Below the pieces are notes generated by a model. The model was not told the origin of the DNA. It searched no databases and saw nothing but the letters and a program-made list of their open reading frames with translations. Both the position numbers and the translations under genes were made by a program. Shown piece by piece: positions 45,464 through 63,255 of a stretch of 64,000 nucleotides of DNA. This stretch comes from a virus, in IMG/VR virus record IMGVR_UViG_3300020595_000016, positions 1 to 64,000 of that record; one strand, written 5' to 3'. The stretch's first letter is position 1; each line of letters starts with the position of its first letter.

Positions 45464-45484
45464 TGGCTTTTATTTAACATCCAC

Positions 45485-47211: not shown

Positions 47212-47232
47212 AAATTTAACGTTTGCCCACTC

Positions 47233-47242
47233 TTAAATAGTC
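47233..47242 (-). promoter_or_regulatory. ACTATTTA-type upstream element (fibre C)
   Basis: The minus strand reads GACTATTTAA, about 98 bases before ATG 47135, upstream of the stem-loop. If it is a start site, the stem-loop would lie in the leader RNA. Confidence 0.4.
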
Positions 47243-47345
47243 ACTTAGTCGCTGCTTTTGTCGTTTATATTATTGGTGTAAGCTAATACTGGCGTTACTT
47301 GTCATATCAGCACTAAATCTTATTATTTTTGATACAAGTCCAACG

Positions 47346-47990
47346 TCACAAGATCCACCAATCGCTAGTGTTATAAGCGATCAGGGTGACTGCAGAGCCA
47401 GTTGATTCTAGATAAATAGAGTTGGTAAGGGCCCCGCCTTCGATCCGATCTCCCGCTGCAGCTACTACAGAAACATTAGATACTGATGCAGATAATTTAA
47501 CATGTAATACCTTGCCGGCTGAAGAAGCTGGCAGCGTGTATATCGCACCACCTATTCCTGTTGTCGAGCCTGATTTGATGAGTGCAAAATCAGCCGACGA
47601 AGATATAGTCGTGCCAAGAGGGGCTGAGCCATATTGTTCAACATCAAGTGGGCCTCCTCCCCCGCCGCCGGATCCGGTAATACCGGTTAGTCGGCTACCA
47701 TCTCCTTCGAAAAAGCTAGCTTTGATGCCGATACTCGCAGTTAGATCCCCCGTTATACTAAGAGTATCTCCATCAAATAGTAAATTTGATTCACACGTTA
47801 TCGTGTTTGCGTTTCCTCCAACATTGGTTATGAGTGAATTGTTGGTTGCGTTTGACAAACGTGGAACATTTATAATAGAAGCACCATCGGAGGTACTTAA
47901 GTTGCCAGATACAATATTGCCAATTACGTGGCCGCCGGGCTGGTAAACTTGAGCGGCCAAAACTGAGCCGGATAGAATGTTATAAGCCAT
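47346..47990 (-). CDS. Fibre-like virion protein D (214 residues)
   Basis: It starts MAYNILSGSVLAAQVYQPGG, a short version of the family. The shaft region is only about 100 residues (ITCESNLLFDGDTLSITGDL, then GIKASFFEGDGSRLTGI), followed by a Gly linker. The C-terminal tip begins DVEQYGSAPLGTTISSSADF and ends SDWWIL. The tip is about two-thirds identical by eye to that of fibre C, so one may have arisen by partial duplication of the other. AAGGAG lies upstream of ATG 47990. Confidence 0.75.
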   Translation of the reverse strand: MAYNILSGSVLAAQVYQPGGHVIGNIVSGNLSTSDGASIINVPRLSNATNNSLITNVGGNANTITCESNLLFDGDTLSITGDLTASIGIKASFFEGDGSRLTGITGSGGGGGGPLDVEQYGSAPLGTTISSSADFALIKSGSTTGIGGAIYTLPASSAGKVLHVKLSASVSNVSVVAAAGDRIEGGALTNSIYLESTGSAVTLIAYNTSDWWIL

Positions 47991-49465: not shown

Positions 49466-49888
49466 CTATTTCATCGCTCGCCAGATCTTAGATGCGTCAC
49501 CGACCAAAGAACTTATGTTTACACCCGAATCAGCCGGGTCGCCTAAGTCAACTGAACCTGCTTTGGGAGATGCCGCTTCGTAGCTGTTCATCGGAGCTGT
49601 GCCTTCAAACAAGTCAACGCCGTTATACGCATCCGAACCAATCGAATCCATAAGTTGGCGTCGGTACTCATTTATTTGTTTTTTAGTGTTTTTGGCTGTA
49701 GCCACGCGGGACTCTTTTCTCACAACTGGTGTTGGGGCCGGTGTGCTCTCGGATAACACTGAGGCGGCACTTAAGCCAGCGGCAACTTCACTTACCACAC
49801 TAGAAAGCAGCCCTTCTTCTATCAATATTTCATTGATGCACTCTTTCACTAGTGGCTTTATAATCTTCTTTAAATCATTTTTTTTCAT
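49466..49888 (-). CDS. Leader-bearing internal head protein candidate
   Basis: The 140-residue protein starts MKKNDLKKIIKPLVKECINE, an amphipathic helix of the same type as the repeated MKITKQQLKQIIKEE leaders. It is followed by ILIEEGLLSSVVSEVAAGLS. IEE/G fits a prohead-protease site (hydrophobic-x-Glu before Gly). The rest is low-complexity Ser/Ala/Pro/Asp with a short basic helix (KNTKKQINEYRRQLMD). Its place next to the protease gene matches T4 gp67/gp68-like prohead core proteins. ATG 49888 overlaps the protease stop. See the leader-family finding. Confidence 0.65.
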   Translation of the reverse strand: MKKNDLKKIIKPLVKECINEILIEEGLLSSVVSEVAAGLSAASVLSESTPAPTPVVRKESRVATAKNTKKQINEYRRQLMDSIGSDAYNGVDLFEGTAPMNSYEAASPKAGSVDLGDPADSGVNISSLVGDASKIWRAMK

Positions 49889-50501
49889 CGTTCACCAGTT
49901 CATCAATTAAGATATCATTCATCAGACGGTTAATCTTATCTTCTTTCGTCATTATTTTGTTTTGAAAGTTTTTGGATTCTTGCATCATAAATGCATTAGG
50001 TGTCGATGGTTCAGACACAAAATCAAAACATATGAGTTGAAAGTCATCTTCAACAATGGTGACATCTTTTTCTTCTCTTACTGAACCCATGCCGCGGGAT
50101 GAAATTCCCATTTTACAGCCACCAATAACTAATTCTTGCAAAATTTTGCCAGCTGGGGTATTCATTACTTGAACCTTGCCCATAGCCACATTGCCATCCA
50201 TCCAAATCTCAGTGACTCGGTGGGACACTCTCTCCAAAGAAACAACATTGTTTTCGGGGTGGTCCAGTTCGCCCAGTGCTCGGTGTTCTGAAACTAATTT
50301 CTTATAGCTGTTTACTTCTCGTATGATAACTTCAGGCGGGTACATTCTACGGTTGCCGTTTACGACGCCACCTTCTTGAAGTTTGCCAGTCAAGATCATG
50401 CCACCTTCAGCAACAAACTTCTTCTCGGCTTCCGTTAGCAGATCTTGGCATACTCCGCCTTCACATAGCTCGTAATATTCTCTTAAAAGTTTCTGACCCA
50501 T
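49875..50501 (-). CDS. Prohead maturation protease (T4 gp21-like)
   Basis: The 208-residue protein has the gp21 pattern. GKLQEGGVVNGNRRMYPPEV comes first, followed by EHRALGELDHPENNVVSLER (catalytic His in ELDHP) and VSHRVTEIWMDGNVAMGKVQ. GGCKMGISSRGMGSVREE then carries the nucleophile Ser (ISSRG), and CFDFVSEPSTPNAFM closes the domain. This serine protease cuts scaffold, capsid and internal proteins after hydrophobic-x-Glu. It lies in the T4 order next to core proteins and portal. Confidence 0.92.
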   Translation of the reverse strand: MGQKLLREYYELCEGGVCQDLLTEAEKKFVAEGGMILTGKLQEGGVVNGNRRMYPPEVIIREVNSYKKLVSEHRALGELDHPENNVVSLERVSHRVTEIWMDGNVAMGKVQVMNTPAGKILQELVIGGCKMGISSRGMGSVREEKDVTIVEDDFQLICFDFVSEPSTPNAFMMQESKNFQNKIMTKEDKINRLMNDILIDELVNDEKK

Positions 50502-50568
50502 AGCTAACTTCCCTTACAACAGTGGCGTACTGGTTGCAACATCCATTTGGTGATCCATATATCGATAT

Positions 50569-50916
50569 TCATTTTGTAGGCACCTCAGAGGTTTGAGAGC
50601 CCTGCCGTTGGACATCCTTAGAACGATTGCGGAACCTATTAGCAAAATCAAGATAAGTTCTGATTTTTTCAGACTGTGTAAAATCTTTCTCGTTTGCGTT
50701 CTCGATCATGGTGAGTACTCCCTCAAGAAAAGGAACTAATTCGCTATAGTCATCAAGTTGTTGTATTTGGGTCATAAGCATAGCCTGCATTCTTTCGAGC
50801 GTTACGGTTACAGTTTGTGGTACCTTGTTTTCGGGCGGTGGTTCTGGCGCTTCTTTTAAAGCCGTAGCGATCTCTTCGTTCAATATTTTTCTAAGTTCGG
50901 ATTTTGTTATAATCAT
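50569..50916 (-). CDS. Leader-bearing small protein
   Basis: From ATG 50916, which overlaps the preceding stop as ATGA, the product is 115 residues: MIITKSELRKILNEEIATAL, then KEAPEPPPENKVPQTVTVTL. The first 15 residues are the same leader type as in the 56-63 kb proteins, and LKE/A fits a prohead-protease cut. The rest is a helical domain (LERMQAMLMTQIQQLDDYSE) with a basic tail. The longer frame to 51003 would run into the membrane-protein gene and has no ribosome-binding site. It is likely a prohead core or internal protein. Confidence 0.62.
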   Translation of the reverse strand: MIITKSELRKILNEEIATALKEAPEPPPENKVPQTVTVTLERMQAMLMTQIQQLDDYSELVPFLEGVLTMIENANEKDFTQSEKIRTYLDFANRFRNRSKDVQRQGSQTSEVPTK

Positions 50917-51239
50917 AATTTGTTTACCTCTGTTTTTTGAAAATTTATTCCTTCGTCGCCGAAGATTATGTTTAATACGTACGATGTTCCCGACGACAGC
51001 CACCCAAGAAGGAAGAAATTTAACACGGAAACGTCAAAATTAAATAGTTCTGTAAATGGAGAAAGTAACATCAAAAGCCAGCCAACATGAAAACCCATGC
51101 ACATGGGGCAGTGAAAAACCTTGCCATATCCGCCTGCTGCTTCTTTTGAGGGTCGTAGCCTGTTTAGCATCGGCATGTCGCTATATACTAGTATTTGAGT
51201 GAGCCCGTAAGCGCATAATATAAAAGTTATTAAGTCCAT
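50913..51239 (-). CDS. Small membrane protein with CPMC motif (DUF1360-like)
   Basis: From ATG 51239 the 108-residue product has three hydrophobic segments (MDLITFILCAYGLTQILVYS, FHVGWLLMLLSPFTELF and LNFFLLGWLSSGTSYVLNII). The motif GKVFHCPMCMGFHVGW is a signature of DUF1360-type phage and bacterial membrane proteins. The function of that family is unknown. It sits among head genes and overlaps both neighbours, so it is expressed late. A membrane role in assembly or lysis timing is possible but unproven. Confidence 0.65.
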   Translation of the reverse strand: MDLITFILCAYGLTQILVYSDMPMLNRLRPSKEAAGGYGKVFHCPMCMGFHVGWLLMLLSPFTELFNFDVSVLNFFLLGWLSSGTSYVLNIIFGDEGINFQKTEVNKL

Positions 51240-51246
51240 TTTTTGC

Positions 51247-51786
51247 CTATATCGTATACATGTAGTTAGATGAGTAAGTGTCTCGGATGTACCCGGGCTG
51301 TATCGAACCTTTCTTGGTGCTCTGTGGTACTTCGCCAAGCTCTGTAGAATGTGTGTTGTCGGGGTTAGCTAACGCACTATCATCCATTGCCACAATAGCC
51401 TCAAGAGATTCAAAGTATGGTCGCTCTTCGTCAATAAATTTAGAGATATTTAGGAGAGCCATCTTTGAAGGTAGAGCAGCTTCGTCCGTAGACGTTTCTA
51501 GGGTTGCCTCGAAGGCTCCGAAAAAAGAACCCCCTTGAATACTTTCCGGCACAACGATGCCTTTGTTTTTGAGTCTCTCAAAGAGTCTATTTTGCGCTCC
51601 ATATACCAAGTCATTTAAGGTAATTTTTGGAAAAGCTATAACTTTATTTTTTTCTGGTGAGACAATAATGTCGATGTCCCCATGATCAAAGATCATGAAA
51701 TCCCCACTTAAGCTCTTTCTGATGTCGAGTTCCAACACAACTTCTTGTGGCTTGGATTTTGAACCAATACTAATCTTTATTGACAT
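51247..51786 (-). CDS. Unknown head-cluster protein (179 residues)
   Basis: A soluble protein: MSIKISIGSKSKPQEVVLEL, then DIRKSLSGDFMIFDHGDIDI and IAFPKITLNDLVYGAQNRLF. The C-terminus is tail-like, Ser/Tyr-rich and unstructured. Small proteins of this length with a DHGDIDI-type strand are found between portal and protease genes in T4-like marine phages. I do not know their role. ATG 51786 lies 16 bases inside the next gene's end. Confidence 0.5.
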   Translation of the reverse strand: MSIKISIGSKSKPQEVVLELDIRKSLSGDFMIFDHGDIDIIVSPEKNKVIAFPKITLNDLVYGAQNRLFERLKNKGIVVPESIQGGSFFGAFEATLETSTDEAALPSKMALLNISKFIDEERPYFESLEAIVAMDDSALANPDNTHSTELGEVPQSTKKGSIQPGYIRDTYSSNYMYTI

Positions 51787-52609
51787 CTTCGTTAAGCTCC
51801 TTCACAAGTTTTTGAGTTTTCATTATAGTAATAAGGGTACTGTCCTCTAATTGACAAAGCTTGAATTCTTCTAACTTGTTTAGTATTCTTTCGGCTTTGT
51901 CAGTCATGTTGGCATCGATGGTTGGCGCTTTGTCGGTAATTGCTTTGGATATTTCAGTTTTAAGCCTGGTAATTTCTTCATTTAGAAACACTTTTAGTTC
52001 TAATGCATTATCAGAAAAGGATGAAATATAAAACCCTAACAATTCTTTCTGCTCATTGAGCAGGGTGCTATCATATTTATCATTAAATTTATTCAAAAAG
52101 ATCTTAAAGGTAGATTCGTCTATAGTCTTTTGATCTGGGTTGCCTGCATCAACTTGTTTTGCGCTCATTGAATCAATCAATTGAGCTTCAAGCATTACTT
52201 GTCTTTTCGGACTTAAGTGACCAGAAAAAATTTGATCTATCGTAGCTAAATTTTTATAATTTGGAACAAAATTGTTGAAGACCTCTGTGTCCACTTCCTT
52301 GTTGATATCAGATATCATTTCACTTTGTTTCTTAAAAAGATGATCGGGTGTGATCATCTTTCTTCTGAACTTTGATTCTGTAATAATCCTTGCGCAAGTT
52401 TCTGGGCTAAGGTTTTGGTTTTCGTATAACGACCGATAGCAATCTAAATCTTTTCTTAGAATAGAATCTCCGTTAAAATACTTTTTAATTAAATCTACTA
52501 CTTTTGTATGCTTATCGGTTTCATTTTTTAATATAGCAACAGTAGCTTCTTTAATTAATGCTTCATAAACAAACGCGGTGTTGCGTTTTTTATTGTGTTT
52601 AGTCTTCAT
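51770..52609 (-). CDS. Unknown helical head-cluster protein (279 residues)
   Basis: The protein is almost entirely helical and Lys/Asn/Glu-rich: MKTKHNKKRNTAFVYEALIK, EATVAILKNETDKHTKVVDL, FRRKMITPDHLFKKQSEMIS. No catalytic motif is visible. It lies directly after the portal gene (overlap of 11 bases), the position of prohead core proteins such as gp67 in T4, so a scaffold or core role is possible. Confidence in the gene is high; in the role, low. Confidence 0.55.
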   Translation of the reverse strand: MKTKHNKKRNTAFVYEALIKEATVAILKNETDKHTKVVDLIKKYFNGDSILRKDLDCYRSLYENQNLSPETCARIITESKFRRKMITPDHLFKKQSEMISDINKEVDTEVFNNFVPNYKNLATIDQIFSGHLSPKRQVMLEAQLIDSMSAKQVDAGNPDQKTIDESTFKIFLNKFNDKYDSTLLNEQKELLGFYISSFSDNALELKVFLNEEITRLKTEISKAITDKAPTIDANMTDKAERILNKLEEFKLCQLEDSTLITIMKTQKLVKELNEDVNKD

Positions 52610-54623
52610 TTTTTTGCTCCGTTATTGTGCTTGTCTTGGTTTCCAGTTCCAAAATTAAATCTCTGACTGAGTGGTTGACTTCAAAAAGTTTATCTTCTTC
52701 TGTGCGTTCCCTCAAATTATAAATAGAAGGAACTTCGTTATAATCACTTTCCGTAGTTATACCGTTAGCATAGCCGGTGGTTTTTACTAGCGACATTATG
52801 TCACTAAGACCCGGCACTGTTTTTCTCGGATCATGGGTTCCTGCAGCTCTACTGAGGGATACCTTCCGGCGGCCTTTGTTATTGTAATTAGAACCATCAC
52901 GCTTTGGAAAATATTCTTTCCCTTTATCATTGGGAGTTCTTTGGGCCTTATTCTTACGGCGAAAGTCTCTGTTTCCAGGAGGGACAGCGACCAGTGCGGA
53001 GTCACTGCCCGAATCAGCAGGCGCGCCGGCTGCGTCAGGCGCGGAGGCGCTATTATCGGGAAGCGCTGTGTCTGCCTCACCGGGCGTAATTTCCATTGGA
53101 CCTCCACCGCCGGCGGGAGGCATGTCGGAGCCTAAGCCCATGTCGGCGCCGCCTGGGCCCATCGCGGTAGCTTCTGCAACTGCCTGGAGTGATGCGTCAT
53201 GTTTTCTGTCGTAATACATTTCTCGCTGGTTTCTTGCAAACTCTTCGGTTGACATACCAAAAACATGATCTGCGACCCAACGTCGTGAAAAGTATCCTTC
53301 CGTCGCTGAGCCAGCAATATCAAATTTCTGTTTCCAATGCTCAAGTTCTTGAAGCTCAGCAATCTTGGAAGGGTTATTGAGCGCCAAATTAAAACTCAGT
53401 AAATCATCGCCGCGGAATCCAAGAGTATACAAATGAATGATTCCGATCTTAGTTAACTCAGAAACCAACACTCGCTGCAGTCTTTGGATGGTGCGTGCGA
53501 ACCTAATATCTTTTTGTGCAAGTGTTGTCTTATCTTCTTCCCCACCTTCACCCATTGTTAAATACGACTGGGGAATCTTGAGAGCGGAAAACAATTTATC
53601 TCGAAGATATTTGACATCATCAATTTGGGTAGTGTTAGTGCCGCCGGCAAGGTTTTGGATATCGGTCACAGAGCCCGGGCGTACGGGAATAAAGTAATCT
53701 TCCTCGATGCTCATTGGATTATAGCGTAAGTCAACTCGACCGGTATCTTTGTTAATAACTGAATGTCGCTTAAGTTGGGTTACAATTTTTTCCATATATT
53801 GTTCAACATCTTGGGGTGGTATGGCGCCAACATCGATTTTGAAAACGCGCCTCTCAGAAGACCGCACAACTCGATAAGCCATCATTGCATCTTCAGCCAA
53901 CGTAAGTTGGCGCCAAATGCGGCGGGCAGGCTCTAAAATCGAAGTTCCATATGGCGCATATTTGTCATGCCCTAATATTCTAAAGTGTGCTATCTGCCAA
54001 TTTTCAAAAGTCATGGCAGCAGAATTCCACTGATATTGTACATAATTTGGGTTGGTGGAATCTTGGCCTTCTAAACGCTCAATTTCTGGTGGAGGAAGTG
54101 CTATTACAGATTTGACACCAAACTTTTCGTCAATGTCGAGGTAAAGGAAAAAGTCCCCATACTTGCACATAGTTCGCGCCCAGCCAAATAAGTTATACTG
54201 TAAGTTTAAAATGTTGTCAAACAGTATATCTAGCACGGCTCGTATCTCTTCGTTTGCGCATTTAATCTTCAACATCGGACTAAGGCTTGAGAAGGTTGTC
54301 ATCTCGTCTGCATAGATGTCCATGGCCGAAGCTATTTCCGGCATGTACTCCATTTGATCGAAATCGACATATCTTTCGTTTCTACGTTGACTTTGGATTG
54401 CATTTGTTGCAATTGTGTCTAATGGATTATAAAGGGTCTTTTTAAATTGCTGGCCCGAGGCGGACTTGAATCTAGCAGAAAATTTATCGAGGTGTTGTCT
54501 TCTAATTTTCCGACCGGTCTGCGAGCGGTAATTAATGATGGGGCCAGAGAACAACCTAGTTAATCTTTTGAATAACTCTGATTGTCTGTTGGCTGGGTTG
54601 TTTTTGTTACTGGTAGGTGGCAT
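52599..54623 (-). CDS. Portal protein (T4 gp20-like)
   Basis: The 674-residue protein has the gp20 signature blocks: ERYVDFDQMEYMPEIASAMD, IYADEMTTFSS, then YNLFGWARTMCKYGDFFLYL. WQIAHFRILGHDKYAPYGTS, LEPARRIWRQLTLAEDAMMA and YRVVRSSERRVFKIDVG follow. It forms the dodecameric portal at the packaging vertex. After about residue 490 there is a long Ala/Gly/Pro/Asp-rich linker with an Arg/Lys patch (RDFRRKNKAQRTPNDKGKEY), longer than in T4 gp20 (524 residues). The last 40 residues contain a conserved-looking YNEVPSIYNLRERTEEDKLF. It overlaps the next gene by 11 bases. Confidence 0.93.
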   Translation of the reverse strand: MPPTSNKNNPANRQSELFKRLTRLFSGPIINYRSQTGRKIRRQHLDKFSARFKSASGQQFKKTLYNPLDTIATNAIQSQRRNERYVDFDQMEYMPEIASAMDIYADEMTTFSSLSPMLKIKCANEEIRAVLDILFDNILNLQYNLFGWARTMCKYGDFFLYLDIDEKFGVKSVIALPPPEIERLEGQDSTNPNYVQYQWNSAAMTFENWQIAHFRILGHDKYAPYGTSILEPARRIWRQLTLAEDAMMAYRVVRSSERRVFKIDVGAIPPQDVEQYMEKIVTQLKRHSVINKDTGRVDLRYNPMSIEEDYFIPVRPGSVTDIQNLAGGTNTTQIDDVKYLRDKLFSALKIPQSYLTMGEGGEEDKTTLAQKDIRFARTIQRLQRVLVSELTKIGIIHLYTLGFRGDDLLSFNLALNNPSKIAELQELEHWKQKFDIAGSATEGYFSRRWVADHVFGMSTEEFARNQREMYYDRKHDASLQAVAEATAMGPGGADMGLGSDMPPAGGGGPMEITPGEADTALPDNSASAPDAAGAPADSGSDSALVAVPPGNRDFRRKNKAQRTPNDKGKEYFPKRDGSNYNNKGRRKVSLSRAAGTHDPRKTVPGLSDIMSLVKTTGYANGITTESDYNEVPSIYNLRERTEEDKLFEVNHSVRDLILELETKTSTITEQKNED

Positions 54624-54637
54624 CTTCTTCTCTCTTA

Positions 54638-56221
54638 TTATTTAATAATCCACTTGTATTGGTCATACATATTCTTAGCTTCCGATATTTTATCAAATAT
54701 ATTATCTTTTTTGTAGCCCTCTTGACCTTTAATTTGTGTATTAAAGGAAGTTTTAGAGGTAACAATTGAATTTGCATATGCCATTTTATAATTTAACTCA
54801 CGGGCGCTGTTTTGTATTGCGGTATCTCTCACCCAACAAGCGATTGCTAGCGCCATGATGAGATCATCATGGTAGCCTTTCATAGCCTGTGGTTTTCCGT
54901 TTTTCCAAATAAAGGTCTTCATCTCGTTAGTTAAACGAGAAGAATATATGGTAATTAGTTTATTTCTGATAAACTCTTCCAACTTGGCAACTATTAATGG
55001 GCGCGTCTTCATAGATGTAGTGAATCCTGGAACCGAATTTGAAAGATATTCTGCTTGATGTTGCTCTACAAATTCATGAGAAGTTTTTATGGAGTAATAC
55101 AAATTAGGATATGCCAACTCTATTAGTTTATTTAAGACCGAATACCCAATATTGTTGTTTTCTACGACTAACAACGCGTTGCCAAACTCGTGGCCGGCTT
55201 GATTAAGTATTGTCGCATACATATCCAGGGCTGGCTTGCCCTGATATTCGGCCACCGCTTCTAAGGTTTCTAATTTTATAACATGAAATGTGGAGTAATC
55301 AGCACCATCGCCGCGGGCAACATCGGCAACTAACAAATAATTGCATGTCGGGTCATACTCTTCCCAGATCCAGAAATTTCTATCGAATCCGGTTCGATAC
55401 TTGGGCTCTTTTACACCAGAAAATAACCACTCCAGACACTCGGGATCTACAACAGTCTCACCAGAAGTATTGAAATTGCACTGTAACTCTTGAGCAATTT
55501 GCCGTTTCGACATATTTCTGGTTTCTTTCTTGTACCACTCTTCATCTCTATCTGGGTGCACATCCCAAGGTAACGTAGTTAAATTAAAATTATTCGCGGA
55601 TGCATCGGCGTCGGTGCACGTCTTGTGAAACCAGTTACCTACCCCATTTGGAGTTGAAAGGGCAATGCAGCGGCCACCGGTAGATAGCGTAGGATACAGG
55701 CCGGTCCACAGTTCTTCTAGACCATCAATGTGGGCGGCCTCATCAAGCACCAACAACGACAGAGCCTCAGAACGGCCGGCATCGCCAGAGGTGGAAGTGG
55801 CTTTTATCGAAGATCCATTCGACAGCTCAAAAGAAGTCCGGTTGTCGACACTAATGGTCGCAATCTTAAGCCAGTCAGGAAGGTTTCTCATGATGTTCTT
55901 GACTTTTTTAACTAAGTTTCCTGCTGTTGCAAACTTTGTGGCCATAACTAAGATGGCTTTATCCCGATGGAATAACATCATCCAAACAACATACCCGGCC
56001 GTAATCGTTGAAATCCCTAGCTGCCTTGCCTTAAGGATAACATTGAACCGGTAATCATTGAAGTCTTTCAATAGGTCATCTTGAAACTCATATGTGTCGA
56101 AAAGAATTAACCCGTGCATCGGGTGGGATATACGGGCGTATGTCTTCAAAAAATAAGATGGGTCTTTACCGCATTTTAATATTTCTTTGACCTTTTGTTT
56201 TTTGTCTAGTTGAAAGCTCAT
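54638..56221 (-). CDS. Terminase large subunit (T4 gp17-like)
   Basis: In this 527-residue protein the ATPase domain shows FNVILKARQLGISTITAGYV (Walker A-type, residues 60-79) and EALSLLVLDEAAHIDGLEEL (Walker B and catalytic Glu). CIALSTPNGVGNWFHKT is the coupling motif. The nuclease domain has YLLVADVARGDGADYSTFHV (first Asp), LLVVENNNIGYSVLNKLIEL and GYHDDLIMALAIACWV (last Asp pair). It packages DNA through the portal. It lies next to the portal gene. No small terminase is recognisable upstream; the 182-residue leader protein occupies that place. Confidence 0.95.
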   Translation of the reverse strand: MSFQLDKKQKVKEILKCGKDPSYFLKTYARISHPMHGLILFDTYEFQDDLLKDFNDYRFNVILKARQLGISTITAGYVVWMMLFHRDKAILVMATKFATAGNLVKKVKNIMRNLPDWLKIATISVDNRTSFELSNGSSIKATSTSGDAGRSEALSLLVLDEAAHIDGLEELWTGLYPTLSTGGRCIALSTPNGVGNWFHKTCTDADASANNFNLTTLPWDVHPDRDEEWYKKETRNMSKRQIAQELQCNFNTSGETVVDPECLEWLFSGVKEPKYRTGFDRNFWIWEEYDPTCNYLLVADVARGDGADYSTFHVIKLETLEAVAEYQGKPALDMYATILNQAGHEFGNALLVVENNNIGYSVLNKLIELAYPNLYYSIKTSHEFVEQHQAEYLSNSVPGFTTSMKTRPLIVAKLEEFIRNKLITIYSSRLTNEMKTFIWKNGKPQAMKGYHDDLIMALAIACWVRDTAIQNSARELNYKMAYANSIVTSKTSFNTQIKGQEGYKKDNIFDKISEAKNMYDQYKWIIK

Positions 56222-56766
56222 ACATTTTTAAGGTTATCTTCCTCTTTGATCACTTCGCGAATAAGGGCCATCAGGTCACCAAGTTCAAGTACCTCTCTGA
56301 TACCGGCAATTCTACCTTGTCGTTGACGGAGTTCAAATTCTTCGCCGCCATATTCCGTAGAAGGTTTTGCGTCGGGCTCTTGTTGCTGCATTTCAATCCC
56401 AGGCAACATTTCAAACACATCCTGGAATAACCCCTGGACGTCCTCCGGTGACATACCTTTTATTAGGGAGAATATCTGATCTTCTAGATGTGCGCCCGGG
56501 CGATCTTGGAAGCCGGAATATTCACTTTCTGGGGCATCGTCTGCTGGGATATCCATAGGCATTGTATCTTCGTGGGGGAGACCTTTTCCTTTTGGTCGGG
56601 GTACTTCTGGTGGAGGCGGAATTGGCCTACTACCTTTACGATTACTTTTGATATTCTTCATCATCTGATCAAATTTTTCGGGAGAAAGGGCCTCTGTCTC
56701 GATACCCTCTTCTAACATAAACTCTTCTAAGACAATGCGTCTCAATTCTTGCTTAGAAATTTTCAT
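56218..56766 (-). CDS. Leader-bearing protein next to the terminase
   Basis: The 182-residue protein begins MKISKQELRRIVLEEFMLEE, the shared leader with LEE/G as a possible protease cut. The middle is Pro-rich (SRPIPPPPEVPRPKGKGLPH) and Asp-rich. The C-terminal half contains helices (IFSLIKGMSPEDVQGLFQDV, IREVLELGDLMALIREVIKE). It occupies the small-terminase slot but has no helix-turn-helix or coiled-coil ring signature. A prohead internal protein is more likely, by analogy with the other leader proteins. The ATG overlaps the preceding stop (TAATAATG). Confidence 0.55.
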   Translation of the reverse strand: MKISKQELRRIVLEEFMLEEGIETEALSPEKFDQMMKNIKSNRKGSRPIPPPPEVPRPKGKGLPHEDTMPMDIPADDAPESEYSGFQDRPGAHLEDQIFSLIKGMSPEDVQGLFQDVFEMLPGIEMQQQEPDAKPSTEYGGEEFELRQRQGRIAGIREVLELGDLMALIREVIKEEDNLKNV

Positions 56767-56768
56767 TA

Positions 56769-57314
56769 TTATTGATCGCCGTTCTTAGTTCGCGTATCGT
56801 TGTCGGGGCGCTTACCCTTCCAGTCGCCAAGTTCAAGAAACTTTTTGTATCCATCTTGCAAAGAATCAGAGGAATATTGAGGAACTGTTGTTTCGGTACT
56901 CACATCCTCAATGATATAAGTGCGAACGGCTGTCACCCAAGTTCTTACTCGGCTGGTGGCTTCCACACGAATATCGGTCTCACCTTCCTGCTTCAGTGAG
57001 ACACCATTTTTAGTAATCTTTTTATATTCTTTCTTTAAAAAAGAGGCTACATCGTTTAACGTACTGTCAATATTATCTTCAAAGCCGCCCCTGTAGACTT
57101 CTTTTAATTTGGTCTCCGAATGATATGCCAGAATCATTTTGTTTCCGAAAAACCTGACATTAAATCCATCTATTACCCGGCGATCAATAAGGGGATTTCC
57201 ATCCTCCCGGTTCAAGCCGGCTAACACAGACTCACCTTCTTCGTTTAAAGCTCCGTCATAAGCATTTGCTGCTGCTTGCGAGAGACCTTGAATAATTTCA
57301 TATACTGTAGCCAT
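56769..57314 (-). CDS. Unknown protein upstream of the terminase cluster
   Basis: From ATG 57314, right after the zinc-ribbon gene stop, the product is 181 residues: MATVYEIIQGLSQAAANAYD onwards. A longer frame to 57413 has no ribosome-binding site. A central alpha/beta region (VIDGFNVRFFGNKMILAYHS, FEDNIDSTLNDVASFLKKEY) is followed by a strand-rich part (ATSRVRTWVTAVRTYIIEDV). The C-terminal tail is charged. It looks like a soluble phage structural or assembly protein. The MxTVYEIIQGLSQAAANAYDG start seems conserved in style, but I cannot name it. Confidence 0.55.
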   Translation of the reverse strand: MATVYEIIQGLSQAAANAYDGALNEEGESVLAGLNREDGNPLIDRRVIDGFNVRFFGNKMILAYHSETKLKEVYRGGFEDNIDSTLNDVASFLKKEYKKITKNGVSLKQEGETDIRVEATSRVRTWVTAVRTYIIEDVSTETTVPQYSSDSLQDGYKKFLELGDWKGKRPDNDTRTKNGDQ

Positions 57315-57318
57315 TTTT

Positions 57319-57711
57319 TTATTTATCCTTTTTAATTTCGGGGCGCCAACCGGTTGACCATCTTTTTTCTCTGTCTTCAACATATTTGTAGTAACAATAA
57401 CTGCAACATTCAAATTTTACAAGACACACATCATCCAGTGATTTCTTAGGAAGATTTCCGCAGACAGGACAATTTGCTAAAGATTCTCTACTAAGTAGTT
57501 TTTTTGACACTTTAACGCCATCAATGTCTATTTTTTCTTCCCAAGCATCGGACTTGCGACTTTTACTATAAAACACACCTAGCTGTTCTAAATACATTTT
57601 CTCTTTTTCCTCTGACCAATTTGTGTGAGGATTTTGAATTGCTTCATCTCCATACTTTTCGCTGATGGCTTTTTCTATAGCTGCTATTTTATTTAAATTT
57701 TTGTTGGTCAT
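57319..57711 (-). CDS. Zinc-ribbon protein (130 residues)
   Basis: A small basic/acidic protein with one Cys pair, CPVCGN (about 85-88), followed by CLVKFECCSYCYYKYVE. This gives an additional CxxC-like pair in a Cys/Tyr-rich segment, suiting a treble-clef or zinc ribbon. The N-terminus (MTNKNLNKIAAIEKAISEKY) is helical. Its start ATG overlaps the stop of the small anchored coiled-coil gene (ATGA). Role unknown; zinc ribbons in this place could be transcription- or packaging-linked. Confidence 0.55.
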   Translation of the reverse strand: MTNKNLNKIAAIEKAISEKYGDEAIQNPHTNWSEEKEKMYLEQLGVFYSKSRKSDAWEEKIDIDGVKVSKKLLSRESLANCPVCGNLPKKSLDDVCLVKFECCSYCYYKYVEDREKRWSTGWRPEIKKDK

Positions 57712-58124
57712 TGTAGAGTCTTATAAGCGCCATACGAGGCGGCAGTGCCAATGAGGATTCCACCAGCAAAATACAACCATTTGTGGCGGGGGGAGGTTTT
57801 TTTTAAGGCGCTAGATAAAAGATTAATTTCTTTATCCTTCTGCATTATAAACAAATCATACTCATCTGTTAAGGATTTATGTTCTATTTTTAAGTTTTTC
57901 AACTTAAAGTCATATTCTTCTCTTTGGATCTTTAATTGATAATCAGTTTTTATATCGCATGAATACTTGTATATATCATAATCTGCCAGCATTTTAGCCA
58001 TGGCCTTTTCGTCGAACAAAACTCCTGCGAATGGTGCTGGCGCCTTATATTCCAAGATGGTAAACTTGGCCGGCTCAACTGCATTCGCTGAAAGACTAAG
58101 CACTAAAAGCAGTTTAAGGAGCAT
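57708..58124 (-). CDS. Exported coiled-coil protein with C-terminal membrane anchor (spanin-like?)
   Basis: From ATG 58124 the protein starts MLLKLLLVLSLSANAVEPAK, a Sec signal peptide. A long charged coiled coil follows (YQLKIQREEYDFKLKNLKIE, then HKSLTDEYDLFIMQKDKEIN). The end is a transmembrane helix (WLYFAGGILIGTAASYGAY). This would put a periplasmic coiled coil anchored at its C-terminus in the inner membrane. With the adjacent N-anchored coiled-coil protein it could form a spanin-like bridge, but lipobox and outer-membrane signals are absent. It is part of the 57.7-58.7 kb membrane-protein cluster. Confidence 0.5.
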   Translation of the reverse strand: MLLKLLLVLSLSANAVEPAKFTILEYKAPAPFAGVLFDEKAMAKMLADYDIYKYSCDIKTDYQLKIQREEYDFKLKNLKIEHKSLTDEYDLFIMQKDKEINLLSSALKKTSPRHKWLYFAGGILIGTAASYGAYKTLQ

Positions 58125-58497
58125 ATTGAATACCAAATCGGCTTTCTATGTCTTTAATTAGCTGCTCTCTATCTTGATTGAATTTATTTCTATATTCGCC
58201 CTTTTTATCCTCTCTCAATTGTTGAATCATTTCAAGGGCATTCTCATAATCTTCTTCGATTGCTGCTATTGACTCCATGTGTTCTTCCATTAGTTTTTGT
58301 TTTTCACGAATTTCTTGCTTATGTATTTCTTTCAAGCCTTCAATTTGTGCTTCATGGGATTCTAGTTGGGTCTCATAGGCATCTTGCATCAGCCTATAAT
58401 CGCGTGTATTCTTGAGGGCTATAACAGCCAAAAGCAACACTATTAGTATTGCCTTCCAATTCTTCAGAGTAAATTCTAGTATCTTTTGTTTAATCAT
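58114..58497 (-). CDS. Inner-membrane coiled-coil protein (i-spanin-like)
   Basis: The 127-residue protein has one N-terminal transmembrane helix (WKAILIVLLLAVIALK). A charged coiled coil follows over its whole length (YETQLESHEAQIEGLKEIHK, EIREKQKLMEEHMESIAAIE). This is the topology of Rz-type i-spanins, which join with an outer-membrane partner to fuse membranes at lysis. No partner lipoprotein is visible inside the gene. It lies just downstream (in transcription) of the holin-like gene, so a lysis role is reasonable but unproven. Confidence 0.55.
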   Translation of the reverse strand: MIKQKILEFTLKNWKAILIVLLLAVIALKNTRDYRLMQDAYETQLESHEAQIEGLKEIHKQEIREKQKLMEEHMESIAAIEEDYENALEMIQQLREDKKGEYRNKFNQDREQLIKDIESRFGIQYAP

Positions 58498-58690
58498 TGT
58501 ACCCTTTTAAACGAGCCAACCCATCAATAACAGTTTGGCCCCCAATATATATAGCGGAGATTAACACCCAGTCTTCGCTAGTAACATGCCCCGTAAAGGT
58601 TAGGCCGGTCGCTGTAAGCCACACCATCAGCTTGCGGGAAGTAAGTTTTGCCAACCATGTATCCACGAAAGCTTTTGTTGCAGCTGCCAT
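58490..58690 (-). CDS. Holin-like small membrane protein
   Basis: From ATG 58690 (overlapping the preceding TGA as TGATG) the product is 66 residues: MAAATKAFVDTWLAKLTSRK onwards. A hydrophobic stretch (LMVWLTATGLTFTG) and a second (VLISAIYIGGQTVIDGLARL) make two short membrane helices. The motif AIYIGGQTVIDxLxxLKG is common among small phage membrane proteins annotated as holins. With the neighbouring spanin-like gene it may form the lysis cassette, separate from the endolysin at 10.4-11.4 kb. Confidence 0.55.
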   Translation of the reverse strand: MAAATKAFVDTWLAKLTSRKLMVWLTATGLTFTGHVTSEDWVLISAIYIGGQTVIDGLARLKGYND

Positions 58691-59103
58691 CACTTACCTC
58701 TCTTGGCTTTTGATATCTCCACTGCTGCGAGTTGGGCTTGAGCGCCTTTCTTTGTCTTTGGCTTTTTTGATAATGGTCTACCGCTCTTAGTGGTCGCCTT
58801 ATATCCACCTTCAACTTCCTTGATCTTTTCTTCAAGGGATTCTTCGGAATTTTGATAGTGATCTCTTAATGCTTGGTGGAGCGCCTGGATGACGCCGCCA
58901 TTGAGGTGCGAGTAGCTTGGTGGGTCTTTGGTTGCATCATCGGCAGCCTCTTGTAACATAACAGCTAATTTTCTTTTAACCCCCTCAACAGTCATAATGC
59001 CATAGCCCGGGATCTGAATTTCAGGACTGCGGGCTTCGCCGCGCGTGTAATCCTTTAACTCTTCCTTAATAATCTGCTTAAGTTGTTGTTTTGTAATCTT
59101 CAT
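58690..59103 (-). CDS. Leader-bearing protein, copy next to the holin-like gene
   Basis: From ATG 59103 the product is 137 residues starting MKITKQQLKQIIKEELKDYT. The leader is followed by RGEARSPEIQIPGYGIMTVE, a helical domain (RKLAVMLQEAADDATKDPPS) and a basic C-terminal tail (KKPKTKKGAQAQLAAVEISK). The tail could bind DNA, as in phage internal head proteins. Upstream frame to 59157 runs through the repeat GAATGGATTAACAACATG. The gene lies in a four-gene tandem of leader proteins. Confidence 0.6.
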   Translation of the reverse strand: MKITKQQLKQIIKEELKDYTRGEARSPEIQIPGYGIMTVEGVKRKLAVMLQEAADDATKDPPSYSHLNGGVIQALHQALRDHYQNSEESLEEKIKEVEGGYKATTKSGRPLSKKPKTKKGAQAQLAAVEISKAKRGK

Positions 59104-59107
59104 GTTG

Positions 59108-59341
59108 TTAATCCATTCCTTCCACTGTGTCGGCGATACGTAAGGAGGTATTTTCAACAGCTTTAATAACGGATTGCGGAATCGCCCCCATCTCGAAAAA
59201 CCCCTGATCCTCCATAAGACCGATGATTTCGTCGCGGATGATTTTGGTGATTGTAGATCGGCGCGTAAAGCTGCCGGCTTCCGGTAGTCCTTCTATCTCT
59301 TCCTTAATAATCTGTTTAAGTTGTTGTTTTGTAATCTTCAT
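59108..59341 (-). CDS. Leader-bearing protein, short copy
   Basis: From ATG 59341 the product is 77 residues: MKITKQQLKQIIKEEIEGLP, then EAGSFTRRSTITKIIRDEII. The leader is identical to the previous gene for 15 residues, and the DNA coding it differs at only a few bases. LPE/A right after it fits a prohead-protease site. The rest is a small helical domain (DEIIGLMEDQGFFEMGAIPQ). ATG 59341 is preceded by GAATGGATTAGCAACATG. Confidence 0.6.
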   Translation of the reverse strand: MKITKQQLKQIIKEEIEGLPEAGSFTRRSTITKIIRDEIIGLMEDQGFFEMGAIPQSVIKAVENTSLRIADTVEGMD

Positions 59342-59360
59342 GTTGCTAATCCATTCATAC

Positions 59361-59600
59361 TTATAGTTCGTTCTCAAAGTCAATAACCGCTTCTTCAGCA
59401 GTTTGTAAAAGTTCTAAAAGCTTTTGATCTTCTCTGTACGGTAGTCTGTTGCGTATGTAATCTGCAAGAGCTTCTATTGCGGCGGTGTGTGGATCTGCTA
59501 CGGAACTTGTGGAACCTCCCGGCACCCCTAATCCATATTGACCTACCTCGGCTAATTCTTCTTTGATAATTTGTTTAAGCTGTTGTTTTGTAATTTTCAT
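59361..59600 (-). CDS. Leader-bearing protein, short copy
   Basis: From the second of two ATG codons (59600; AGGAG six bases upstream) the product is 79 residues: MKITKQQLKQIIKEELAEVG, then QYGLGVPGGSTSSVADPHTA and IEALADYIRNRLPYREDQKL. The leader is again the same. The remaining 60 residues are a short helical domain. The 59613-59637 region in front of it also carries the TATGAATGGATTAGCAACAT block, here without a leader ATG. Confidence 0.6.
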   Translation of the reverse strand: MKITKQQLKQIIKEELAEVGQYGLGVPGGSTSSVADPHTAAIEALADYIRNRLPYREDQKLLELLQTAEEAVIDFENEL

Positions 59601-59632
59601 CATAATCTCCTATGTTGCTAATCCATTCATAC

Positions 59633-60070
59633 TTAGTTTTCTGTTGGTATTTTATTTGTTTTGTCCCAGTTCAATTCATCATGCGCTTCTAATACTCTCA
59701 TAAATAAAAATTTCAAACCCTTGTCAAAAGTGGTTCGTCCTTTTTCCATATAACTGTAAAAGTCGTTGATTTCATGATCAATGACTTGAATCAGTTTTCT
59801 ATACGCCTCATCTTTGTGATAATCGCCGGCGGATCGAAGAAAATAATCATCGAAAATTTCTTCCATATAGCCGAATGTTCCTGAAGCTTCAGGTCCATCG
59901 ATTGAATCTTCAAATTCTTGCTTAAGTTCATCGCCGTGTTTTTCAAGGAATGTATTAAATTTTAATTCCGCTACTTCTTCAGGCGAGCGCGCAGGAGACA
60001 TGTCAATCGCTAGCGATTGCTGCTCATCTTCTTTCAAATACCTGTTCCAATTTTCAAATAGTTGTTTCAT
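59633..60070 (-). CDS. Leader-bearing protein, alternative leader (MKQLFENWNRYLKE)
   Basis: From ATG 60070 the product is 145 residues: MKQLFENWNRYLKEDEQQSL onwards. The leader is a second type, also seen at 61859 (MKLLIENWNKFLNE). It resembles T4's capsid-targeting MKTYQEFIAEA in pattern: Lys, hydrophobic, Glu, aromatic, Glu. The rest is helical and acidic (FNTFLEKHGDELKQEFEDSI) and ends NWDKTNKIPTEN. ATG 60070 overlaps the tubulin-like stop as ATGA. Confidence 0.6.
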   Translation of the reverse strand: MKQLFENWNRYLKEDEQQSLAIDMSPARSPEEVAELKFNTFLEKHGDELKQEFEDSIDGPEASGTFGYMEEIFDDYFLRSAGDYHKDEAYRKLIQVIDHEINDFYSYMEKGRTTFDKGLKFLFMRVLEAHDELNWDKTNKIPTEN

Positions 60071-61209
60071 GTCGCTAATCCATTCATACTTAGTATCGCA
60101 ATCAATCCAGGCACATTCTTTCGGACGTAAACGCCAGAGAAAAGTGTCTCGCATCGACCGCCGACATAAGCGATTGCCGACTCAATATTCTTACTGACTT
60201 TAGGGTCAGCCACCATCTCTTCCGAGACTACCAAAACCAATGAACCTGCCGCGGCCTTACCTTTCGGTGGGGGGCACGCTGACCTATTCATACAGTTATG
60301 GAGAATCACCGATCCAAGCTTAGCAGTATTTGGATCCTTTATCATAGTTGAGCCTAAGAAGGCACGACCGTCATTGCCCAAACATGTTTCCAAATCCTTG
60401 CTGTCAAAAGATTGAATCGGTGAATCCTCGGTGGAGAGCTTTAACACTTGGGCAAGTGACTTAGCAAAAGTTGTGTTGGCGACTGGGTACATGCCAAGCA
60501 TGCCAATGCGGCCGCGCAGTAATCGTGTGGCTCGTTCATTGTCTAAAATGATATGCGGATACTTGGTGACGTCATTTGCCAGCGTCAACGCATTACGAGC
60601 GATTGTGGGGTTAAGATTTTCTTGTGCTGTTGGCCAAGAGACTATGTAAACGACCTTGCCACTCGATTGCACAGAGCGCATGTAACGCTCAAAGACAGGA
60701 TGCAGAGCGGTAACACTACTACCGGTACCGCCGCCGCCGCCAGCAAGGACGAATAACCAATCAACTTTACCGAGTTTGATACGCAGGGCATCTTCAACAA
60801 TCGCGCCATTTTGACTTAAAACCTCTTTTCCATATTCAGTGTTCTTGCCGATTCCATCAGAATCGGGGATAAGGACAACGTGGTCCTCTTCGACATTCTT
60901 TGGAATGTCTTTGCCTGTTGTATTGACAAGCAATGTTTTGTTGAAGCCAAGCTCAATAAAAGCATTAGCCATTTTATTGCCTCCACCGCCGACACCGACA
61001 AAACCAACATTGATAGATGAGGGTGCTGTATTCTCGGGGAGTAAATCTTCATCAGAGTATTCCATCTGTAATCCGAAGTCTTCAACCATACCGAAATCTT
61101 CTGCATCTACTTCTTCGTGGTAACTGTCTTTTTCCTGCGCAAACGCGGGAGGTGGTTCTGCGGGAGGCAGAAAATCAAATTCGTTTTTATCTTCTTTTTC
61201 GTCTGACAT
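60067..61209 (-). CDS. Tubulin/FtsZ-superfamily GTPase
   Basis: The 380-residue protein has an acidic Pro-rich N-terminal extension (1-65). Then SINVGFVGVGGGGNKMANAF (phosphate-contact loop) opens the domain, and DWLFVLAGGGGGTGSSVTAL carries the tubulin signature (GGGTGS). VVYIVSWPTAQENLNPTIAR and HIILDNERATRLLRG follow in the FtsZ order (nucleotide Asn-Asp segment). The C-terminal half resembles the FtsZ second domain. Phage tubulins (PhuZ) centre replicating DNA in jumbo phages; this one looks closer to FtsZ. It lies among internal/head-leader genes, not in a replication operon. Confidence 0.85.
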   Translation of the reverse strand: MSDEKEDKNEFDFLPPAEPPPAFAQEKDSYHEEVDAEDFGMVEDFGLQMEYSDEDLLPENTAPSSINVGFVGVGGGGNKMANAFIELGFNKTLLVNTTGKDIPKNVEEDHVVLIPDSDGIGKNTEYGKEVLSQNGAIVEDALRIKLGKVDWLFVLAGGGGGTGSSVTALHPVFERYMRSVQSSGKVVYIVSWPTAQENLNPTIARNALTLANDVTKYPHIILDNERATRLLRGRIGMLGMYPVANTTFAKSLAQVLKLSTEDSPIQSFDSKDLETCLGNDGRAFLGSTMIKDPNTAKLGSVILHNCMNRSACPPPKGKAAAGSLVLVVSEEMVADPKVSKNIESAIAYVGGRCETLFSGVYVRKNVPGLIAILSMNGLAT

Positions 61210-61220
61210 TGTTAGTTTCC

Positions 61221-61859
61221 TTAAATTTTACCGTGCTTTACAAAGCCGTATCCCATATCAACAGCATCTTGTTTACTGCCACGAATGCGATCTTCGGTAG
61301 TGTTGTATCTTTCTTTAACTTCTCGCATTGTTATTTCGGGAAGTTGCGGCGTTGGATCACCGGGGTGAAAAGTCCAAACTTGCAGTTTTTCTTTATCTTC
61401 TCTAGATGGCCCAATGATTAAAGTTGTGTGCCTGACTTCACGGGCCGCAGCAGGAATATCTGCAACAACCTCTGCCAAAACTTCTGGTTCACCAGTTTGC
61501 GGATTTGGCTCTTTAGTCATTGCTTTGCCACCGTGTGCTGGTTGAAACACAACTTCGTCTGGTGCTTCGTCAATATCAGCGATTCCTAACACACCGGGAA
61601 TTGCGGCCTTAAACCCAATGGCTCCAATAGATGTGTTTATTGCCGGATGAGGGTGTGGTTGCCAACCGGCTTGTATTAAATCTTGGATAGAAGTTGGACC
61701 GGAAAAAGTGCTACCAGCGGCGCCGGGGCCGGCTGTGCGGGTCGACAGAGTGTCTTCTAGATATTTCGGATCTGTATTCTGAAAAGCGGAAGCTACCATC
61801 GATGCGGCATTTTGTTTCTCGTTCAAAAACTTGTTCCAATTTTCTATTAACAGTTTCAT
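61221..61859 (-). CDS. Leader-bearing protein with possible enzymatic C-terminal domain
   Basis: The 212-residue protein starts MKLLIENWNKFLNEKQNAAS, a leader of the second type. A Gly/Pro/Ala-rich middle is followed by a compact domain EVRHTTLIIGPSREDKEKLQ, VWTFHPGDPTPQLPEITMRE, ending AVDMGYGFVKHGKI. The strand-turn VWTFHPGDP and the conserved His and Arg residues look like an enzyme or toxin-type fold that phages may inject, but I cannot name it. ATG 61859 overlaps the preceding stop (TAAAATG). Confidence 0.55.
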   Translation of the reverse strand: MKLLIENWNKFLNEKQNAASMVASAFQNTDPKYLEDTLSTRTAGPGAAGSTFSGPTSIQDLIQAGWQPHPHPAINTSIGAIGFKAAIPGVLGIADIDEAPDEVVFQPAHGGKAMTKEPNPQTGEPEVLAEVVADIPAAAREVRHTTLIIGPSREDKEKLQVWTFHPGDPTPQLPEITMREVKERYNTTEDRIRGSKQDAVDMGYGFVKHGKI

Positions 61860-61860
61860 T

Positions 61861-63255
61861 TTAGTAATATGCCTTTCCGGTTTCCTCTGCTTCGAATCCG
61901 TTCATTTCTGCCCACATTTCAATATATGCCGGTGCCTGGCCGTTGACGATCATCTTCCATGGCTCACCATCAAACAAATCGATACTAAATTTAAAGGGTG
62001 GTTCGTCACCAAAGTCTAAGGTTTTGCCTTCTAATTCCTCTATCATTTGCTCAAAAGTTTTATCAATTCCCTCGACTTCTACCTTTGGTCCGCCATCAAA
62101 TTCATCTTCGATAACTTTATATGTGAAACTTTTAGAGCGCTCATGGAGCACACTCGAAAGCTCTTCTTTGGTGATTCGTTCAATCGACTCTCTTGTAAAT
62201 TGTGGCGGCTTATTGGATTTTTTCTTGGCGGTTTTTAAGTGGCCGCGTCGAGAGCCTGTCTTATTAGCCAACGCCAGTGCATCGACGAGAGAGTTAATTT
62301 GGCGGCCCAAGCGATCACCCTTGATAGCGTATTTTACATTATCCATATATTTTTCGAGAGAGCTGGTCCCGAATTCGGGGTCATACAGTCCTGCGTCTTC
62401 AAGAAATTGAGCTATCGCCGGCTTATCGAATACACTAAGATAGCCACCGGCTGCTTTCCATGCAGCTTTTTCTTGAGCGTTAGGTCTTCTTTCTTTACCC
62501 ATCAAGTGCGCGCGTCCGGGGTGGGGTATCTTGGTAAATGTATCTTTAAATTTTCCACGAACCTTTGGTGGCACCATGTCGCGCATTCGGAAGGGTGAGT
62601 CGTCTCCAAACTCCTCTACCATGGCTGATACTTCTTCTTTGATAATATCTTCAAGTTGTGACCTTCTAATCTTCATTTTAGCAATTCCTTCTGTATATAA
62701 ATTTGGCTGTCTTTCTTCAAGCGGCTTGAGTCCAGAATCCGGGTTTAGTCCGATGTATTTGTCTATTGTAAGCTTACATTTGACAAGCAGTGGGCCGTTA
62801 CCGTCCGAGTTCACAATCATTGAACCATAAGACGACCTTGCGCGCGTTGGAGCTAAATATTGAAATGTGGTATTGGGATTGTAGCGACCATCATACTCGT
62901 CATCACCAACCCAGTCGGTAACGAGATTACTGACAGCGAAATAAAAATCTTCAGCCTGTTCCGATACAGGTCCATATTCTGGCCAATCTTTTTCAGCAAG
63001 ATTAAAATCAATATCTCGCTCATTCTCGTGTCCGAACATAGCGCGGAGTATCTTTTGATTTCCACATTCGTTAATTAGGAATTGGCGAGTTGCCCTCATA
63101 GGTGCAGTTGCTTTGTTTGCGGCGCCTTGGGTGCGTTGGGCGGCCTTAGACGTTGTCGTGATCGACTGCATGTAATCATCAAAATCATCTTCAGTGATAA
63201 ATTTATTGATTTCTTCTTTAATAATCTCCGTAAGTTCTAACTTTTTGATTTTCAC
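61861..63255 (-). CDS. Triple fusion of leader-type modules (464 residues)
   Basis: The frame contains three leader-type segments: MKIKKLELTEIIKEEINKFI at residue 1, MKIRRSQLEDIIKEEVSAMV near residue 194 (internal ATG 62676) and FTRESIERITKEELSSVLHE near 353. Each is followed by its own domain. The first domain resembles a small folded domain (AEDFYFAVSNLVTDWVGDDE), the second is basic (RRPNAQEKAAWKAAGGYLSV, KKKSNKPP), and the third is mixed (YKVIEDEFDGGPKVEVEGID). Module two's leader is preceded in-frame by EGIAK, where sibling genes have a stop before the ATG. So it looks like two or three genes fused by loss of stops, or a polyprotein cut by the prohead protease. Confidence 0.6.
   Translation of the reverse strand: MKIKKLELTEIIKEEINKFITEDDFDDYMQSITTTSKAAQRTQGAANKATAPMRATRQFLINECGNQKILRAMFGHENERDIDFNLAEKDWPEYGPVSEQAEDFYFAVSNLVTDWVGDDEYDGRYNPNTTFQYLAPTRARSSYGSMIVNSDGNGPLLVKCKLTIDKYIGLNPDSGLKPLEERQPNLYTEGIAKMKIRRSQLEDIIKEEVSAMVEEFGDDSPFRMRDMVPPKVRGKFKDTFTKIPHPGRAHLMGKERRPNAQEKAAWKAAGGYLSVFDKPAIAQFLEDAGLYDPEFGTSSLEKYMDNVKYAIKGDRLGRQINSLVDALALANKTGSRRGHLKTAKKKSNKPPQFTRESIERITKEELSSVLHERSKSFTYKVIEDEFDGGPKVEVEGIDKTFEQMIEELEGKTLDFGDEPPFKFSIDLFDGEPWKMIVNGQAPAYIEMWAEMNGFEAEETGKAYY

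Follow-up and report, generated by a model that had tools for sequence, protein, structure and literature searches.

Why should many unrelated proteins of one virus begin with the same short peptide? The question is raised by the first 64 kb (64,000 nucleotides, referred to below as the window) of the IMG/VR virus record IMGVR_UViG_3300020595_000016, which totals 106,855 bases and contains a series of genes whose products share N-terminal leaders. An earlier note on this DNA proposed that the leaders direct cargo proteins into the capsid, where they are removed by a prohead protease of the gp21 type, and that the cargo is then injected into the host. The best supported reading of the leaders is that they target proteins to the capsid and are then cut by the gp21-type protease. 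They probably represent a T4-type system of N-terminal capsid-targeting propeptides, expanded and modular, with packaging and injection as its presumed consequences. The observations behind this conclusion are the sequence anatomy of the leaders, their conservation, swapping and loss, their co-occurrence with the protease, and the repetition of leader cassettes.

Leader families and their common end

The leaders occur in uncultured T4-like phages, mostly marine, where hundreds of unrelated proteins carry them, and can be sorted into three families: t1, MKITKQQLKQIIKEE; t2, MKxLxENWxxFLxE; and t3, MARRKNTKRIDPRYFLNE, which was newly found in this analysis. The t3 consensus, MA(R/I)RKN..(R/F)(I/F)DPR(Y/W)F(L/M).E, is carried by other small proteins (26 core-motif matches, one of them inside a t1 protein). 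Pattern scans of IMG/VR returned at least 120 stretches for t1 and at least 120 for t2; the loci of relatives are labeled below with L and a number. The record and its relatives together have 4484 distinct genes, with 473 t1 and 263 t2 matches at a score of 10 or higher, and shuffled proteins gave 0 matches at this threshold. Judged by position, 341 of the t1 and 198 of the t2 matches lie no more than 4 residues from a called start; most of the others fall among residues 1 to 100, a region in which the start call is doubtful. When 3 mismatches at most are allowed, the t1 pattern is present 0 to 27 times per contig in 21 long contigs, in which the reversed t1 control pattern was never found. 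The leader genes of jumbo contigs are spread over several tracts far from each other. The 701 bodies behind the leaders form 462 sequence clusters, of which 373 have a single member. Terminase, portal, protease, capsid, SbcC and two other conserved families have 0 leaders in 23-122 relatives each.

The information per column, computed over 310 t1 and 160 t2 representatives, drops to background just after residue 22 in t1 and just after residue 14-15 in t2. The leaders are 22 (t1), 14 (t2) and about 18-26 (t3) residues long, all on unrelated bodies, and both t1 and t2 end at hydrophobic-x-Glu (h-x-E). In the 13 residues behind the t1 core, a region in which residues 16 onward were not chosen by the scan pattern, h-x-E is present in 76% of the sequences, mostly with the Glu at position 21 or 22, versus 24% of control intervals. 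In t2, h-x-E is at residue 14 in 91% of the sequences, E14 itself being part of the scan pattern. At T4 gp21 sites, Ala or Gly usually follows the Glu. A similar preference had been claimed for the leaders; it survives as a mild enrichment in t1 (Ala 17% vs 9%, Gly 11% vs 7%), and the commonest residue after the t2 site is another Glu. The codons that differ within same-locus pairs of t1 leaders are synonymous in 49% of cases, versus 19% expected for random single changes (related copies being compared), and the peptide itself therefore appears to be under selection.

When the sequences are aligned at the Glu, both families keep the spacing of the T4 capsid-targeting sequence (CTS), with W8, F/Y11, L12 and E14 in t2 and L8, I11, I12 and E14 in t1; the match was found by inspection of side-by-side sequences rather than by a statistical homology test, and it is looser for t1 than for t2. 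The T4 proteins IPII and IPIII start with MKTYQEFIAEA, and a start of the T4 type, MKSYKQFMSES, is also found in cyanophage S-RIM2. The features of a T4-type CTS, namely a short shared N-terminus, spacing in register, an h-x-E end and a gp21-family protease in the genome, are all found here. The PF03420 protease is present in 32 of the 39 long contigs with leaders, and loci picked by the protease alone, 79 in number and 974 kb in length, hold 137 leaders (in 54 of the loci), against 0 in 713 kb of podovirus control loci. That leaders and protease lie on the same strand carries no weight in the window's genome, as all called genes longer than 300 bp are on one strand there. The end of conservation at h-x-E, the T4 spacing and the frequent presence of the protease together suggest that the leader is a targeting signal that is cut off.

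The same reading is supported by the exchange and loss of leaders on homologous bodies. Eight clusters contain both t1 and t2 leaders; for example, the bodies of a t2 protein (L194:9771-10001) and a t1 protein (L076:2754-2978) are 75% identical. Two leaderless proteins (L045:11484-12329 and L101:686-1546) begin exactly after the leader Glu of their homolog L228:2169-3425. In one cargo family, the h-x-E directly before the body is kept in all 10 of 10 sequences, despite insertions and deletions of 0-5 residues ahead of it. An AlphaFold model of this family (10 sequences) has a mean pLDDT of 82, with values below 50 for residues 1-20 and mostly 80-96 for the body, which suggests a disordered leader on a well-folded domain. 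A structure search with this model found no solved relative. A Cys-rich family has 12 members with the leader and 2 without it. This family has the conserved motif CP.(A/P)TQD..LNT.NR... and is borne as t2 cargo (e.g. L263:8586-9053); a relative in Actinomycetia phage DSL-LC01 is annotated as a high potential iron-sulfur protein and lies beside capsid maturation protease genes.

From these observations we infer the following course of events, which includes core binding, packaging, cleavage, ejection and possibly an action against the host. Late in infection, the leader-bearing cargo would bind to the prohead core via its leader and become trapped as the gp23-type shell is completed. Cleavage by the gp21-type protease would follow, either after the h-x-E at the end of the leader or at two sites in t1 (residue 14 and about residue 22). 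The folded cargo would be freed inside the head and later ejected together with the DNA. In evolution, bodies would be swapped under constant leaders.

A scan of GTDB returned 7 stretches in 5 metagenome-assembled genomes (MAGs). The leader genes of L210, L213 and L214 (305,838-base contig filed as Methylococcaceae MAG) lie on MAG contigs, which are possibly misbinned jumbo phages. A tblastn search of an annotated phage collection with the 22-residue consensus gave no match, the query being so short and of such low complexity that isolates may still hold the leader. Phage DSL-LC01 was considered as an isolate carrier and discarded, as its genome is metagenome-assembled and holds no leader. In the 40 kb examined of Flavobacterium phage immuto, there are only leader-like N-termini. 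A limited search of the open literature found no paper that names the motif or joins capsid targeting with phage metagenomics.

Leader genes of the window and their cassettes

All nine protein starts listed in the earlier note are present in the sequence, all on the minus strand, as are the leaders, cargo genes, tag copies and tubulin-family, protease and capsid genes of the window described below. The genome-wide search that it had called for, run with the leader profile on the 106.9-kb record, recovers each of these starts except 49888, adds one that had been missed, at 62676, and finds none outside 50.9-63.3 kb. Among the seven starts that had been assigned to t1, those at 59103, 59341 and 59600 carry MKITKQQLKQIIKEE exactly and those at 50916, 56766 and 63255 carry variants of it. 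The start at 49888 (MKKNDLKKIIKPLVKE) was rejected as a shuffled leader: it scores below the profile threshold and is the N-terminus of a single conserved family that follows the protease. The two further leaders, at 60070 and 61859, are indeed of the t2 type. An h-x-E end, which had been noted for several leaders, is present in every named one except that at 59103, where the one fitting site, IKE, is internal to the leader.

The cargo genes lie on both sides of a tubulin/FtsZ-family gene (60067-61209; PF00091, E 1.8e-8; FtsZ structures match). The last 23 nt of this gene are a tag that is repeated between the leader cassettes behind it. The tag, AAGTATGAATGGATTAGC(A/G)ACAT, occupies 60069-60091 and overlaps the ATG of a t2 gene (59633-60070, 145 residues; leader MKQLFENWNRYLKE at 60029-60070). 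A second copy (59612-59634) precedes a t1 gene (59361-59600, 79 residues; leader at 59556-59600), which has one relative, L118:31-264. A third (59340-59362) overlaps the ATG of the next t1 gene (59108-59341, 77 residues; leader at 59297-59341), for which no relative was found. The fourth copy, a partial one (59104-59120), precedes the t1 gene 58690-59103 (137 residues; leader at 59059-59103). On the other side of the tubulin-family gene lie a t2 gene (61221-61859, 212 residues; leader MKLLIENWNKFLNE at 61818-61859) and a gene for a fused cargo protein of 464 residues (61861-63255), which has two leader motifs and, in degenerate form, a third. The first of these motifs is a t1 variant with a GTG start (63211-63255); the second is an in-frame t1 leader (62632-62676) with an imperfect copy of the intergenic tag ahead of it.

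The protein encoded by 58690-59103 has a basic C-terminal module (phrog_3684), and its middle domain shares 78-79% identity with the C-terminal portion of two t2 proteins, L199:149-736 and L183:263-856. The basic module, K.GG..LSKKPK(T/S)KK.A..QLAA(I/V)EISK, is shared with L019:4468-4665, L059:8757-9227 and L064:1944-3374; the N-terminal parts of these four proteins differ, and three of them bear leaders.

Over all loci there are 60 distinct tag copies with up to 3 mismatches, and 14 loci have two or more. Of the copies away from the tubulin 3' end, 32 of 34 precede a leader gene (15 t1, 9 t2 and 8 t3). At the tubulin 3' end 18 of 26 do so, and one more, in L032, precedes a gene that is t3 by eye and 'other' by script. 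As a background, leader genes make up 138 of the 690 genes in tag-bearing loci. Sixteen proteins, including that starting at 63255, have two or more leader motifs more than 60 residues apart. The repeats suggest that arrays and fusions may arise by recombination at the tag and leader, with a direction and mechanism that are conjectural. At one locus, an exchange of bodies would have left behind the tubulin gene an array in which cassettes of tag, leader and body recur, some of them merged into proteins with several leaders. Three leader proteins (L108:5037-5963, L126:3077-3727 and L275:1684-2052) have a t1-like motif near the C-terminus as well; the T4 protein Alt is processed at both ends (PMC9026906).

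Few of the bodies are recognized by Pfam or PHROGs. Those that are include NUDIX, poly(A)/CCA polymerase, deoxynucleotidase, HD, YkuD (L,D-transpeptidase), cell-wall hydrolase, AAA/zeta-like kinase, pentapeptide repeat and S-adenosylmethionine (SAM) lyase domains. An ART-like reading of L014:4765-5895 was dropped, being unsupported by Pfam or PHROGs. A SAM-lyase domain search of 49 leader-bearing records gave 8 matches, representing about six distinct proteins, with five records above the family cut-off; Pfam PF23780 matches leader-bearing proteins of L416-L420 above the cut-off. All 8 of the 8 SAM-lyase-like genes start with a t2 or t2-like leader that ends near h-x-E. The L416 protein combines SAM-lyase and Cys-rich parts with a t1 motif.

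The head genes of the window are T4-like: a large terminase (phrog_2), a gp20-like portal (phrog_213), a gp21-type protease (49875-50501; phrog_207, E 4.8e-53) and a gp23-type major capsid protein (39477-41291; PF07068, 206 bits over 39516-40331). The window thus has the gp23/gp20/gp21/gp17 set that defines the heads of the T4 superfamily. The protease N-terminus ends in D-h-h-x-E, mostly DLLTE, in 86 of 92 relatives, which is possibly a self-cut site. The capsid relatives mostly have LL(R/K)E near residue 60, close to the position at which T4 gp23 is cut. Both motifs are candidate sites for the same enzyme.

Three of the proteins that had been counted as shuffled cargo belong instead to the fixed set of head-operon proteins. 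A protein of 140 residues encoded directly after the protease gene (49466-49888) has 69 relatives with similar bodies, and its N-terminus, MKK.DLK..IKPLVKECI.E(V/I)L(L/I)EEG, can be aligned by eye to t1 with a 4-residue gap. The genes 56218-56766, upstream of the terminase, and 50569-50916, upstream of the protease, encode conserved families of the terminase/protease operon with t1-like N-termini (MKISKQELRRIVLEE at 56722-56766 and MIITKSELRKILNEE at 50872-50916), the match of the 50916 family being made by eye. Also among the head genes, 49210-49461 matches phage-borne ribosomal protein S21 (phrog_21469, E 5e-4), and 41324-42430 encodes a candidate scaffold. Four long proteins with MAY(N/K) starts are encoded at 42581-47990, one with internal DNA repeats spaced by 252 bp (46341-46961), and are probably fiber-like virion proteins. 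Three small genes between the cargo and the terminase (57708-58693), with hydrophobic N-terminal or membrane segments, form a possible lysis cassette.

Alternatives and implications

Several points weigh against the targeting and cleavage of the leaders. There is no h-x-E behind the core in 74 of the 310 t1 representatives, and the residue after the t1 site at position 14 is Glu rather than Ala or Gly. The scan patterns fixed residues 1-15 of t1 and 1-14 of t2, and conservation in this part is in some measure selected. Seven of the 39 long leader contigs, fragments of 67-147 kb, have no protease. The podovirus control loci are closely inter-related, and the protease is not the only thing that sets them apart from the test set. 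Leader-bearing proteins have slightly acidic bodies (net charge -0.049 per residue, compared to +0.008 for other proteins), which do not share the basic character of the mature T4 internal proteins. A limited search of the literature gave no virion proteomics or cleavage data for these uncultured phages.

The leader proteins might enter the prohead and be processed there as core or assembly factors rather than as injected effectors. The 50916, 56766 and 49466 families, fixed in the terminase-protease operon, would fit such a role, and so would several large proteins whose genes come right behind that of the protease in relatives (L161:4567-6285, L187:5977-7452 and others); they have a t2-like motif behind an MSSF..D start and are possibly core proteins and the source of the t2 leader. 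The bodies, however, are very diverse, their copies number anywhere between 0 and 27 in a long contig, and they include enzymes with no expected part in assembly, such as the NUDIX, deoxynucleotidase, CCA/poly(A) polymerase, SAM lyase, L,D-transpeptidase and kinase-like proteins. A general role in assembly is therefore unlikely. Docking on a different phage structure, such as a filament of the neighboring tubulin or a membrane, is suggested by the position of the window's densest array directly behind the tubulin-family gene and by the t1 core, which could form an amphipathic helix. This idea leaves the protease-like end, the T4 spacing and the co-occurrence with the protease without an explanation and accords poorly with the distant tracts of leader genes in jumbo contigs; we consider it very improbable. 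The slimmest chance is given to the leader being a DNA-level cassette, a sequence for translation initiation or recombination that encodes its peptide incidentally. The tag and leader are indeed repeated as DNA between cassettes, but most of the wider set has no upstream similarity within the locus, the differing codons are synonymous far more often than expected, and three unrelated peptides have a common h-x-E end.

If the leaders are capsid-targeting propeptides, the content of the head could be read from the genome, and hundreds of proteins without a known function would become injection candidates by virtue of a tag of 14-22 residues. These would act at the first moment of infection, when anti-restriction and counter-defense proteins must act. 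The T4 targeting signal, characterized mainly in T4, would extend to a large group of uncultured phages, including contigs of 240-293 kb. The leaders would also suggest a route by which cargo genes are captured and provide new signals for loading proteins into phage capsids. As a tentative generalization, which may well prove too broad, the leaders might constitute a general code for capsid import that uses three or more interchangeable signals and has a cassette locus behind the tubulin gene, where recombination at the 23-nt tag and leader captures, shuffles and fuses effectors, with the result that a virion would bring along as many as dozens of ready-made proteins against the host.

Comparison with known systems

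The CTS of T4 IPI, IPII and IPIII was described by Mullaney and Black in 1996 (as reviewed in PMC9026906; also PMC3012670). Mutagenesis has shown that targeting depends mainly on residues 4 and 7 and processing on residues 8 and 10 (PMC9026906). Like the T4 CTS, the leaders are short N-terminal peptides that start with MK, are attached to unrelated proteins, and have an aromatic or hydrophobic pair, a hydrophobic P3 and a Glu at P1 with equal spacing; as in T4, the genome encodes a gp21-family protease and a gp23-family capsid protein. Unlike T4, which has one such family, there are three here. The t1 leader is aliphatic, without aromatic residues, and has a second h-x-E behind the first. The carriers are far more numerous (a single contig has as many as 27 t1 copies), and fused multi-leader proteins and tag-separated cassette arrays occur. 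The T4 internal proteins are described as related basic proteins (PMC9026906), in contrast to the slightly acidic bodies found here. The T4 cargo includes the anti-restriction protein IPI*, which is injected and blocks a restriction enzyme (PMC3012670).

In the phiKZ-like giant phages SPN3US and 201phi2-1, head propeptides are cut after x-x-Glu by a protease related to T4 gp21, and in SPN3US two paralogs have an identical 15-residue N-terminus (PMC5694885). The predicted cleavage of the leaders is of the same type. The phiKZ-like propeptides are mostly long, several with more than 100 residues, and end in A-x-E or S-x-E, whereas the present phages combine a T4-type head with short, shuffled leaders.

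The T3 SAMase, which breaks down the SAM of the host, is made before any other viral protein (PMC8406200). Its named activity is the same as that of PF23780, the family matched by the leader-bearing proteins of L416-L420. In contrast to T3, where the enzyme is made first after infection, the SAM-lyase genes here carry a capsid leader, which suggests that the lyase is delivered to the host as a protein.

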